Below, one piece after another: positions 4,053 through 36,691 of a stretch of 39,721 nt of DNA (position 1 is the first letter of the stretch; every line of letters starts with the position of its first letter). This DNA is from an uncultured Pseudomonadales bacterium (GTDB taxonomy: Bacteria > Pseudomonadota > Gammaproteobacteria > Pseudomonadales > IMCC2047). Under the pieces are notes generated by a model, which saw nothing but the letters and a program-made list of their open reading frames with translations, was not told where the DNA came from and did no database searches. The position numbers and the translations under genes are program-made. Location of the stretch: NCBI GenBank assembly GCA_947258415.1, contig CAMYIF010000002.1, positions 1 through 39,721 of the forward strand, written 5' to 3'.

Positions 4053-4541
4053 ATGACCAGACTAGACCTATCACCACTATTTCGTTCATCTGTTGGTTTC
4101 GACCATCTCGCGTCTTTGCTTGAAAGCGCAACGCGCCTGGATCAGCCCGCTTACCCGCCCTACAACATTGAGCGCGTGGGTGAGGACAAGTACCGTATTG
4201 CCATGGCAATTGCCGGCTTTAAAGACAGTGACCTGTCAATAGAGTCAGAAGGTAATGCCCTGACCGTAACCGGTACCATTGATAAAGGCAATGAAGACCG
4301 CGAATACCTCTACCAGGGTATCGCAGCCCGTAATTTCGAACGCAAGTTCCAACTGGCAGAACACGTAAAGGTCGTTGGCGCCAAATTGGAAAACGGTTTG
4401 TTGAATATTGACCTGGTAAGGGAAATCCCGGAAACCTTGAAACCGCGTAAAATTGAGATTGGTACAACTGGCGAAAAGGTTATCGAAGGTAAAGCCTCCA
4501 AGGCAGATACCAGGAAAGCCGACGAGTCCAAAGTTGCCTGA
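4053..4541 (+). CDS. Small heat-shock protein, IbpA/Hsp20 family
   Basis: This alpha-crystallin-domain chaperone holds denatured proteins in a refoldable state in the cytoplasm. The start MTRLDLSPLFRSSVGFDHL resembles the E. coli IbpA N-terminus. The alpha-crystallin domain covers roughly residues 35-130 and ends with a typical G-x-L element (ENGLLNIDL). The last 25 residues are a charged Lys/Ala-rich tail. The ATG at 4053 is preferred over the one at 4047 because AGAGG (4040-4044) is 8 bases upstream of 4053 but only 2 from 4047. The product is 162 residues. Expression is probably controlled by a heat-shock promoter and a ROSE-like thermometer, and a strong terminator follows, so it is a one-gene unit. 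Confidence 0.92.
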   Translation: MTRLDLSPLFRSSVGFDHLASLLESATRLDQPAYPPYNIERVGEDKYRIAMAIAGFKDSDLSIESEGNALTVTGTIDKGNEDREYLYQGIAARNFERKFQLAEHVKVVGAKLENGLLNIDLVREIPETLKPRKIEIGTTGEKVIEGKASKADTRKADESKVA

Positions 4542-12265: not shown

Positions 12266-13018
12266 ATGGTTGATACCGCTTCCATACTTGTCATTATCGC
12301 GACTTTTATGCTCGGAGGCATCGTCAAAGGCATCATTGGTCTCGGTTTGCCTTCTATCTGCCTTGCGCTGCTGACGCTTGCGCTGGATCTAACCAGTGCC
12401 ATGGCCTTGATCCTGGTGCCATCCTTCGTAACCAATATCTGGCAAATTTTTGCCGGTAAAAACACCAAACAACTATTTATACGGATCTGGCCTTTCCTGC
12501 TAATGGCAACGGTTTCCGTTTGGTTTGGCGCGCTGGCATTAACCCGATCAAACCTGGCATTACTCGCCATACTGCTTGGCATATTGCTTATAATATATTC
12601 GATCGTTAACCTCTGCGGCCTCACGTTTACCGTAAAGAAGAATCACGAAGTCTGGGTCGGCCCATTAATGGGAACTATCAACGGAATTTTTGCCGGAATG
12701 ACCGGGTCCTCTGTTGTTCCGGGCGTTATGTTTCTGCAGGCCATAAACCTGTCTAGAGATGCTTTGATTCAGGCAATGGGCATGCTGTTTGCCTTGTCCA
12801 TTTTAGCCTTGGCTGTCGCACTGGGGCGAAGTAATTTTCTGACCGTCGAGCTTGGCGCTATTTCTGCTATTGCCGTGTTACCTGCACTGGCGGGAATGGT
12901 TTTCGGACAAAAAATTCGTCAACGACTACCCGAGCGACGGTTCCGTAAAGTTTTTTTTATTTCACTGCTCGCGTTAGGCTTGTACATCATAGCCAGCAAG
13001 ATAGGGAAGTTGATCTAA
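12266..13018 (+). CDS. TSUP (TauE/SafE) family membrane permease
   Basis: The protein is 250 residues and almost wholly hydrophobic, with seven to eight predicted membrane segments. Its N-terminal half has the family pattern GGIVKGIIGLGLPSI and its second half the related GTINGIFAGMTGSSVVPG, consistent with the internally duplicated TauE/SafE fold that exports sulfite, sulfoacetate or other small organic anions. The substrate is unknown. A broken isochorismatase-type hydrolase lies 78 bases downstream in the same direction and may once have been its metabolic partner. The start ATG at 12266 directly precedes the first hydrophobic segment. Confidence 0.88.
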   Translation: MVDTASILVIIATFMLGGIVKGIIGLGLPSICLALLTLALDLTSAMALILVPSFVTNIWQIFAGKNTKQLFIRIWPFLLMATVSVWFGALALTRSNLALLAILLGILLIIYSIVNLCGLTFTVKKNHEVWVGPLMGTINGIFAGMTGSSVVPGVMFLQAINLSRDALIQAMGMLFALSILALAVALGRSNFLTVELGAISAIAVLPALAGMVFGQKIRQRLPERRFRKVFFISLLALGLYIIASKIGKLI

Positions 13019-13096
13019 AGGCTGGTAAAACCTGCCTTGTTCATTGGAGCCAATACCAGACAAGGCCGATACGGGCCAGCTATTACAGAGTTATCT

Positions 13097-13702
13097 ATGC
13101 GATTGGACAAATACACTCAATACAATTTTAATCGTTCGGTACTGATTACCATCGATACACAAAACGATTTCACCCTGGCCAATGCTCCTGCGATGATTAC
13201 CGGTACCCAGGAAGTCCACCCCGATATGGTTCGTTTATTGGCTTTATTTAGGAACAAAGGCTTGTCAGTTATTGATGTTATTCGCCTGTACCTGCATGAC
13301 GGCTTAAATGCCGGGTTGTGCCGCAGGAAAATGGTCGAGACAGGTAATGAAATTGTCGCATCGGGTGGGAAAGGTGCAGAGCTGGTCGATGTGCTAAAAC
13401 CAGATCAATCGGTTTGGTTTGATTTCGAGCGGTTGTTATCGGGAAAATTGCAGAAAATCGGTAAAAATGAATTTGTTATGTATTAATCCAGATGGGGTGC
13501 TTTTACAAGGCATTGCTGGAATCGTATTTTAATAGAAAAAGGTATTGATACCCTGATATTCTCGGGGTGTAATTTCCCGAATTGTCCGAGAACCAGTATT
13601 TATCGGACCAGTGAAAGGGATTTGAGGATTATTCTTGCCACTGATGCGGTGTCGCAATTGCATGCAAAAGGCGAAGAGGAAATGGAAAGTACTGGTGTCT
13701 AG
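13097..13702 (+). pseudogene. Isochorismatase-family cysteine hydrolase, interrupted
   Basis: Reading from ATG 13097, the protein shows the family start (LITIDTQNDF, with the catalytic Asp). It reaches EFVMY and then meets TAA at 13484-13486, where relatives have a Lys in a (Y)K-x-RWGAF context; SRWGAF follows directly. Downstream the same frame contains the nucleophile region GCNFPNCPRTSIY and ends at TAG 13702. Between about 13501 and 13540 the neighbouring frame gives a better family match (YKALLESYFNRK), pointing to a lost T in the T4 run (13501-13504) and a gained A in the A5 run (13536-13540) that cancel each other. The expected K is the catalytic lysine of the Asp-Lys-Cys triad, so even readthrough would probably give an inactive enzyme. 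Sequencing error in homopolymers is the alternative for the indels. Confidence 0.8.
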
Positions 13703-13774
13703 CTGTTAACAATAAACGGATTGACCGGGCTGTTAACCTGACAATTCATATAGCGTATAAGGAAGAGTAGAAAC

Positions 13775-14218
13775 ATGACCCTGAACCAGATGATTCCCGT
13801 GCTGCAACTTTCGGTTGGTCCCGTTATCGTGATTTCGGGTGCTGGCCTGGTATTGCTGTTAATGACCAATCGTTATGCCAGGGTTATTGATCGTACCAGA
13901 AGCCTGGCTCAATCAATCCGGGATGCATCCGGAGACGAAAAAAAACGCTATTGTGATCAACTCCTGATTTTGGGTCGCCGTGCGTGCCAGCTGCGCACGG
14001 CTATTACCTTTGCCTCGATCAGCACATTGTTGGCGCCATTCCTGATCATCGCCCTGTTTTTTGTCACGCTCTTCGATCTAAGGGCCACGTGGCTGATCAT
14101 TATCATATTTATCTCCTGCATGGCGACCCTCGTTGTCGGGCTCATCATCTTCATTTTCGATGTTAATGCCTCGCTCGCGGCGCTCAAGGTCGAGACCAAT
14201 ATTGAAGAACTCAACTAG
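13775..14218 (+). CDS. DUF2721 family membrane protein
   Basis: This 147-residue protein of unknown function has the DUF2721 layout: a first membrane segment (VGPVIVISGAGLVLLLM), then TNRYARVIDRTRSL, a charged stretch with Cys and Arg (RRACQLRTAI), and two closely spaced membrane segments (STLLAPFLIIALFFVTLF and LIIIIFISCMATLVVGLIIFIF). The N-R-x-x-R-x-x-D-R pattern after the first helix is the family hallmark. GGAAG precedes the ATG. LemA and an M48 protease follow after about 180 bases and a co-functional link is possible, but no sequence feature proves it. Confidence 0.82.
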   Translation: MTLNQMIPVLQLSVGPVIVISGAGLVLLLMTNRYARVIDRTRSLAQSIRDASGDEKKRYCDQLLILGRRACQLRTAITFASISTLLAPFLIIALFFVTLFDLRATWLIIIIFISCMATLVVGLIIFIFDVNASLAALKVETNIEELN

Positions 14219-33391: not shown

Positions 33392-34487
33392 ATGGAAATA
33401 AATCCGATTATTCAAACATTGAAGAATATCCAGGAACGCACGGAACTGCTCAGGGGGTATCTTTGACTACGCTGAAAAAAAAGATCGACTGGCTGAAGTC
33501 GAACGTGAACTCGAAGACCCTGCTGTCTGGGATGATCCCGAGCGAGCGCAAATGCTGGGCAAGGAACGCTCAAACCTTGAAGGTATCGTCAATACCATTG
33601 ACCGACTGAAGACCGGTATCGAAGAAGCCAGCGAATTGCTGGATCTGGCCGCCGAGGAAAATGACCAGGAAACCGTTGATGAAGTTGCCGACGACGCAGA
33701 ACAGCTGACCAAAACACTGGATAAGCTCGAATTCAGGCGCATGTTTTCGGGAGAAATGGATCCCAATGCAGCCTTCCTGGATATTCAGGCGGGTTCCGGT
33801 GGTACCGAAGCGCAGGATTGGGCAGAAATGCTGCTGCGTATGTACCTGCGCTGGGGTGAACGGAAAGGTTTTAAAACAGAATTAATGGAAGTCTCCGCGG
33901 GTGATGTTGCCGGCATTAAGGGCGCAACAATTAAATTCGAGGGAGAATATGCTTTCGGATGGCTGCGCACGGAGACCGGAGTACATCGGCTGGTACGCAA
34001 ATCGCCATTTGATTCGGGTAATCGTCGACACACTTCTTTCGCCTCTGTTTTCGTTTCGCCGGAAATAGACGACAATGTCGAAATCGACATCAACCCGGCA
34101 GACCTGAGGATAGATACTTACCGCTCCAGTGGTGCCGGGGGCCAACATGTTAATACCACCGATTCTGCGGTACGTATCACCCACGAGCCCAGCGGTATTG
34201 TTGTACAATGCCAGAACCAGCGTTCGCAGCATCAAAACCGGGACTCGGCCATGAATCAATTGCGCGCCAAGCTGTTTGAGCTGGAAATGCAAAAACGCAG
34301 CGCCGAGTCACAGGCACAGGAAGACAATAAAGCCGATATCGGTTGGGGTAGCCAGATTCGTTCTTATGTGCTGGATTCATCGAGAATCAAGGACTTGCGA
34401 ACCAATATTGAAACCTCGAATACGCAAGCCGTCCTGGACGGTGATATCGACTGTTTCATCGAGGCATCACTCAAGGCCGGTTTATAA
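33392..34487 (+). CDS. prfB: Peptide chain release factor 2 (programmed +1 frameshift)
   Basis: RF2 releases nascent protein at UGA and UAA codons. Translation begins at ATG 33392 and meets an in-frame TGA at codon 25 (33464-33466). A +1 shift at CTT continues into the main frame, giving 364 residues, close to the 365 of E. coli. Beyond the shift, stop-codon recognition motif SPF is in VRKSPFDSG and the GGQ motif is at 249-251. The shift makes RF2 levels self-regulated: low RF2 leaves time to shift. A second in-frame ATG at 33552 exists but is not the true start. It is followed by lysS, the conserved order. Confidence 0.97.
33452..33467 (+). promoter_or_regulatory. Programmed +1 frameshift site of prfB
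   Basis: The site AGGGGGTATCTTTGAC contains a Shine-Dalgarno-like AGGGGG three bases before the slippery CTT and the stop TGA followed by C. This arrangement is identical to the E. coli prfB site. Confidence 0.97.
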
Positions 34488-36157: not shown

Positions 36158-36691
36158 ATGACTGCAAAACGCTGCGTTAAAATTGATGCCACCTGGAAAC
36201 TGGCGCTGGACGATGAATTCGAGCAGGCTTACATGAAAGCATTGCGGGATTTTCTGTGCCAGGAAAAAAAAGCCGGTAAACTGATATACCCGCCAGGCGA
36301 TAAAATATTCAATGCTTTTAACCTGACCCCGTTCGACCAGGTAAAAGTGGTGATTCTGGGACAGGACCCCTATCATGGCATCGGTCAGGCTCACGGTTTA
36401 TGTTTTTCCGTTCAGCCAGGGATCAGGTTGCCCCCCTCGTTGCAAAATATATTTAAACAGATTCACCAGGAATACGAGCTGGAATACGGCACCGACCGCA
36501 TCGAGGTGCACAGCGACGCCGTTGGGCCGGGCGATCGGGTCCTCGTCGTCGACGACGTGCTCGCCACGGGCGGAACCGGTGCAGCCGCAGTTCGCTTGGT
36601 GGAGCGCCTCGGCGCCGAGGTCGTTGGCTTCAAGCGTGCCAACCTGTACCTGGTATCACAAGGGCTGGAACCCATTAACTGGCAGGTTTAA
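36158..36691 (+). CDS. Chimeric uracil-DNA glycosylase interrupted in frame by an adenine phosphoribosyltransferase segment
   Basis: The 177-codon frame has AAGG before ATG 36158. Residues 1-106 are a normal uracil-DNA glycosylase N-terminus with the active-site motif GQDPYHG (68-74; D70 catalytic) and QAHGLCFSV. The last 19 residues, [19 protein letters not shown], match the glycosylase C-terminus. Between them, residues 107-158 are not glycosylase. They are adenine phosphoribosyltransferase: [15 protein letters not shown], then the complete PRPP-binding signature [13 protein letters not shown], then [14 protein letters not shown]. The glycosylase loses about 95 residues, including the Asn-containing LLLN segment and the HPSPLS loop with catalytic His and intercalating Leu, so activity is not expected. 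The transferase part lacks its N-terminal half. Whether it is expressed is unknown. A native, recombinant or assembly origin cannot be separated from sequence alone. Confidence 0.85.
36476..36631 (+). other. High-GC apt-derived segment inside the glycosylase gene
   Basis: These 156 bases (52 codons) encode the adenine phosphoribosyltransferase part. By hand count 110 of 156 bases are G or C (about 70%), against roughly half in the flanking genes, and codons such as CTC, GTC, GCC, CGC and GGC dominate. The change is abrupt at both ends and the frame is kept. Composition and protein sequence point to a high-GC source, possibly an actinobacterium, which is an inference. Confidence 0.8.

Follow-up and report, generated by a model that had tools for sequence, protein, structure and literature searches.

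Among the closest described systems to the locus reported here are the isochorismatase family PF00857, with its solved structure 3hu5, and the triuret hydrolase TrtA, which belongs to the same superfamily. The TrtA study gives the catalytic triad of that enzyme (6XIX) as Asp24-Lys129-Cys162 (PMC7948467); these published numbers, as given there, differ from those of the 6xix chain by a constant offset of 3. A further comparison is offered by prokaryotic pseudogenes, described as deriving from accessory, possibly transferred genes (PMC522871). Like our locus, these are inactivated copies of genes with a patchy distribution and combine nonsense with frameshift lesions.

Locus and reading frame

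The window analysed here, a stretch of 39,721 nucleotides on contig CAMYIF010000002.1 of an uncultured Pseudomonadales bacterium, contains a disrupted isochorismatase-like hydrolase gene flanked by open neighbours, with the following features:

12266..13018, + strand: TSUP/TauE permease, intact neighbour (PF01925, E = 3.5e-23; no stop)
13097..13741, + strand: isochorismatase-like cysteine hydrolase gene (PF00857), very probably a pseudogene; it begins at ATG 13097 and closes at TGA 13739-13741, its third stop in frame
13484..13486, + strand: in-frame TAA at the catalytic-lysine column (Lys in relatives; alignment with TrtA Lys129)
13499..13504, + strand: one-base loss shifting the frame, approximate (inside a T run, where the exact base is not determinable; DNA alignment with two relatives and frame scoring)
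13524..13530, + strand: one-base gain restoring the frame, approximate (DNA alignment and frame scoring)
13700..13702, + strand: second in-frame stop, TAG, truncating the C-terminal tail (83/83 aligned relatives run on for at least 8 residues)
13703..13738, + strand: remnant of the C-terminal tail, LLTINGLTGLLT, 3' of the TAG (resembles relatives' tails)
13775..14218, + strand: DUF2721 membrane protein, intact neighbour (PF11026, E = 9.1e-27)

The ATG at 13097, the TAA at 13484-13486 and the downstream motif GCNFPNCPRTS all lie in one frame, which is open for 129 residues from the ATG and reads EFVMY-stop-SRWGAF around the stop. Translated with X in place of the stop, the frame gives 201 residues and matches the Pfam family Isochorismatase (PF00857) over residues 14-193 (E = 1.3e-12; 48.6 bits against a cut-off of 27), and 3hu5 is matched in two stretches flanking the stop (i-Evalues 5.3e-10 and 2.3e-5). 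Because the matches fall on both sides of the TAA, we take the downstream half as true homology and not as a chance open frame; the initial annotation, which had recognized an isochorismatase-like hydrolase with an in-frame TAA from the letters alone, was correct in this respect. With the PF00857 family and 3hu5 the locus shares the domain, the catalytic Asp of DTQNDF and the nucleophilic Cys of NCPR, both kept in frame, and the column of the relatives' Lys can be identified; it differs in the stop at that Lys, in a cut C-terminal tail and in residues 135-142, which are in the wrong frame. The homology, Asp and Cys expected of a functional member are thus present, while the Lys and an uninterrupted frame are missing, and the locus has the marks of a pseudogene, namely multiple disabling lesions by comparison with intact homologues and relaxed amino-acid constraint. 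TrtA itself is distant from the family found in the window, there is no evidence for triuret as that family's substrate, and the NCBIfam match to biuret amidohydrolase is far below threshold (20.1 bits, cut-off 370).

The neighbouring TSUP permease, whose possible degradation in relatives had been raised as a check, is open both in the window and in all three matching genomes (27 others searched). Homologues of the TSUP, Na/Ca-exchanger and DUF2721 neighbours occur at none of 86 other hydrolase loci within the flanks covered (usually 1.5-4 kb, less where a contig ends), and a functional partnership with any of the three was ruled out on that ground. No RNA element or tRNA was found at the stop site in the window, and the region 12900-13900 shows no clear excess of promoter-like sites (4 against a shuffle mean of 2.3) or terminator-like sites (1 against 1.0).

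The catalytic-lysine column

That the stop replaces the lysine of the triad, as first proposed, is upheld by alignment, which places the residue in the same column and not elsewhere. In searches with X at the stop, which involve no lysine-bearing pattern, Lys stands opposite the TAA in all nine relatives that were aligned (L002, L003, L004, L005, L006, L007 and L099-L101, of which L004 and L005 are plasmid records); eight were aligned directly, and L003, without a row at that place, was aligned using intact L007 as query. In a profile of five intact relatives, moreover, the Asp, Lys and Cys columns align with 6xix chain positions 27, 132 and 165, that is, with Asp24, Lys129 and Cys162 of TrtA. 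Lys in 9/9 relatives and the alignment with TrtA Lys129 together establish the assignment of the catalytic lysine.

Three of these relatives, L099, L100 and L101 (37-39% identity), keep the catalytic Lys, whereas the position normally taken by the nucleophile lacks a Cys, the surrounding stretches reading GTDFSTSPRS, GCNFPTGTRA and GFNFPTGGRA, respectively. EntB/PhzD-type isochorismatases are likewise not known to carry the nucleophile Cys.

Further lesions

The TAA is followed by 71 open codons and then by a second stop, TAG 13700-13702, directly after the GV that closes the last aligned helix. Beyond this column all 83 aligned relatives extend, by 8-33 residues and in one case by 202. The 12 codons after the TAG show weak signs of homology to the tails of relatives: when they are scored against the tails of six proteobacterial relatives, a score at least equal is reached by 26 of the 50,585 stretches of 36 stop-free bases in the window, a ratio that is not a probability since the stretches overlap. 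The shortened tail might by itself be harmless.

Between the two stops, DNA alignment with L006 and L007 requires a gap of one base near 13500, balanced by one in the other direction near 13526. Scored against 82 relatives, residues 135-142 fit far better in the -1 frame (YKALLESY, +15.1) than in the gene frame (TRHCWNRI, -7.5), a difference of 22.7, and the gene frame fits again from residue 143. The same frame scan on the 82 relatives as controls, which include one duplicate pair (L054, identical to L006 and left in), gives a largest difference of 6.4. Within the shifted stretch, an invariant Thr (82/82 relatives) and a Leu present in 80/82 are replaced.

Fifty columns conserved in 90% or more of the relatives lie outside the stop codon and the frameshifted segment. 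The gene has replacements in 8 of them, including a His and an Ala that are each invariant in all 83 relatives, compared with 0-1 of 50 in seven intact relatives. When each of the 82 rows is left out in turn, the window departs from 11 of 54 conserved columns, the median relative from 1 and the next highest from 6, apart from the outlier L085 with 17, a distant relative that was kept as intact and has 37% identity to the query. Left out of the 83-relative alignment were L003 (distant), L063 (a contig fault with a stop) and L083 (a frameshifted copy); the protein of L008 (Candidatus Thiodiazotropha endolucinida) is identical to that of L007 and was dropped before the 82-row counts, and the plasmid matches H3-H14 (25.7-29.2% identity) lie outside the aligned set.

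In L083 (Paenibacillus sp. DMB20, ~4359-4435), a hydrolase copy is split by a frameshift into two overlapping tblastn pieces that lie in different frames; this frameshift could be either real or an assembly error.

Extent and estimated age of decay

Simulated neutral decay, with three intact relatives as ancestor stand-ins, kappa 2 and indels ignored, reproduces each of the two counts, the pair of stops and the eight replacements, best at about 0.07-0.1 substitutions per site, with 0.05-0.13 acceptable. On these counts, constraint would have ended some 0.05-0.13 neutral substitutions per site ago. The end branch of the window is 0.92 changes per residue; the remaining six rows of its group, which is weakly resolved, have 0.07-0.44. 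Long end branches are also found elsewhere in the tree (L005, 1.76; L066, 1.49; L064, 1.25; L081, 1.12). In 14 of 15 triples, change at codon positions 1 and 2 relative to position 3 exceeds that of the two comparison lineages, and in the remaining triple it does not; the triples share rows and so are not independent. Taken together, the long branch, the lesions and the age estimate indicate a decay that is well under way and older than a single base change, yet young, with 57-59% identity to the nearest relatives remaining. The original suggestion of a single recent base change does not survive these results: with a second stop, a frameshift pair and an excess of replaced conserved residues, all three missed by the initial annotation, and with a long branch in evidence, we reject a lone recent nonsense mutation.

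Distribution and relatives

The host genome (2.49 Mb in 229 contigs, 95.8% complete, 3.7% contamination) contains no second copy of the hydrolase at E <= 0.001. Elsewhere the gene is patchily distributed: matches occur in 2 of 55 other genomes of the family and order sample (E <= 1e-3), in 2 of 368 genomes of the class (E <= 1e-15) and in 3 of 397 of the phylum (E <= 1e-20), counts that rest on differing E-value limits. Two genomes of the same family, 86% and 83% complete, have no hydrolase match, and neither the genus nor the species is represented again in the 55-genome sample, so that the lesions are seen in a single assembly. The class itself appears to be Gammaproteobacteria: L007 comes from a genome of the window's class, and its protein is identical to L008 of Candidatus Thiodiazotropha endolucinida, a gammaproteobacterium. 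Nitrosomonas, Bacillota, Halobacteria and others also carry close relatives, a taxonomic spread that suggests gene transfer. A first scan of a contig collection, with the window protein as query, found no relative; a second, with an alignment of intact relatives as query, yielded 84 loci, of which 80 were kept. Of the two patterns used in the second scan, one contains the lysine and the other (TIDTQNDF) favours the conservation of that motif; because of the lysine-bearing pattern, these loci were excluded from the evidence for lysine conservation and used for other columns. The literature results, judged unrelated by title, included no isochorismatase pseudogene with a nonsense codon.

Interpretation and alternatives

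We are highly confident that the locus is an ordinary pseudogene of an accessory, patchily distributed Asp-Lys-Cys hydrolase. On this account an isochorismatase-like cysteine hydrolase, accessory to its host, would have lost selective constraint in this lineage, after which it would have gained two premature stops and two mutually cancelling one-base frameshifts and had conserved residues replaced. Ribosomes would now stop at TAA 13484, giving a 129-residue fragment that retains the catalytic Asp and lacks Lys and Cys; given the absence of the latter two, no active enzyme is expected. The loss of the normal enzyme, as initially claimed, is supported. The lesions and the homology are plain from the sequence, and the gene was probably functional earlier in the lineage. 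Against decay it could be argued that the 71 open codons, the cancelling frameshifts and the kept Asp and Cys also fit a selected remnant. For annotation, the locus would be best treated as a pseudogene, neither a truncated enzyme nor a recent one-step knock-out, and it offers a small example of how checking the rest of a gene and the neighbouring frames alters the reading of a lone, striking nonsense codon.

The alternative that survives best concerns the order of events. The frameshift pair may be older than the stops, having been tolerated or selected in a working enzyme that the nonsense codons ended only later; the frame is exactly restored within ~30 bases, as expected if it still mattered, and compensated frameshift pairs have been described in animals (PMC8935012). 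Two indels can, however, cancel by drift alone, and the shifted stretch costs the protein the invariant Thr and nearly invariant Leu noted above, so that we regard this order as unlikely, if worth keeping in view. A more specific version, in which the compensated pair reshaped a segment adjoining the active site at a time when the enzyme was still needed, and the gene was later lost, making the locus a failed remodelling followed by nonsense decay, seems to us rather improbable.

Could the true gene be intact, and the lesions be errors of sequencing or assembly in a metagenome-assembled contig? The fragmentation and contamination of the assembly would allow it, as would the single sighting of the locus; artefacts of this kind, short indels and wrong single bases, are frequent, and a chimeric open reading frame on the same contig (36158-36691, described below) may represent one assembly fault. 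The proposal nonetheless requires at least four errors within one 640-base gene, together with the replacement of 8/50 conserved columns, and the 29 other window genes picked for comparison (9,082 codons) are all open. We consider it very improbable that the pseudogene reading is mistaken for this reason.

Programmed or leaky readthrough of TAA 13484, inserting a residue at the lysine position to yield a full-length enzyme, would account for the nucleophile motif still encoded downstream, but it can be dismissed almost entirely: TAA is the normal stop here, ending 17 of the 29 picked window genes (TAG ends 7 and TGA 5), all nine relatives have a sense codon at this position, and the product would meet a second stop and a frameshifted stretch downstream, with conserved residues lost, so that it would still have an incorrect segment next to the active site and a truncated tail. 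Reassignment of the TAA codon was ruled out by the same 17 genes.

Other features of the window

The open reading frame at 36158-36691 (+; 177 aa) is composite. Residues 11-106 match uracil-DNA glycosylase (3tr7, E = 2.8e-35), and residues ~100-158 match adenine phosphoribosyltransferase (4m0k, E = 3.3e-19), the insert lying at ~36475-36630; after the phosphoribosyltransferase part the frame ends in PINW, which we take to be an Ung-like C-terminal motif. The phosphoribosyltransferase part has ~70-75% GC, against 40-53% upstream, and its DNA is ~72% identical to Azospirillum and Nonomuraea records; in its own genome the frame matches only itself. Either the central part of ung has been exchanged without loss of frame, or the frame is a chimera created by the assembly.

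A release factor 2 gene at ~33395-34487 (+), presumably prfB, contains at ~33453-33468 the stretch AGGGGGTATCTTTGAC, which appears to us to resemble the well-known programmed frameshift site. At the start of the window, an open frame of 893 residues on the minus strand (1-2679) runs off the contig end; with HFLEH as its HxxEH motif, it presumably resembles an insulinase-type zinc protease.
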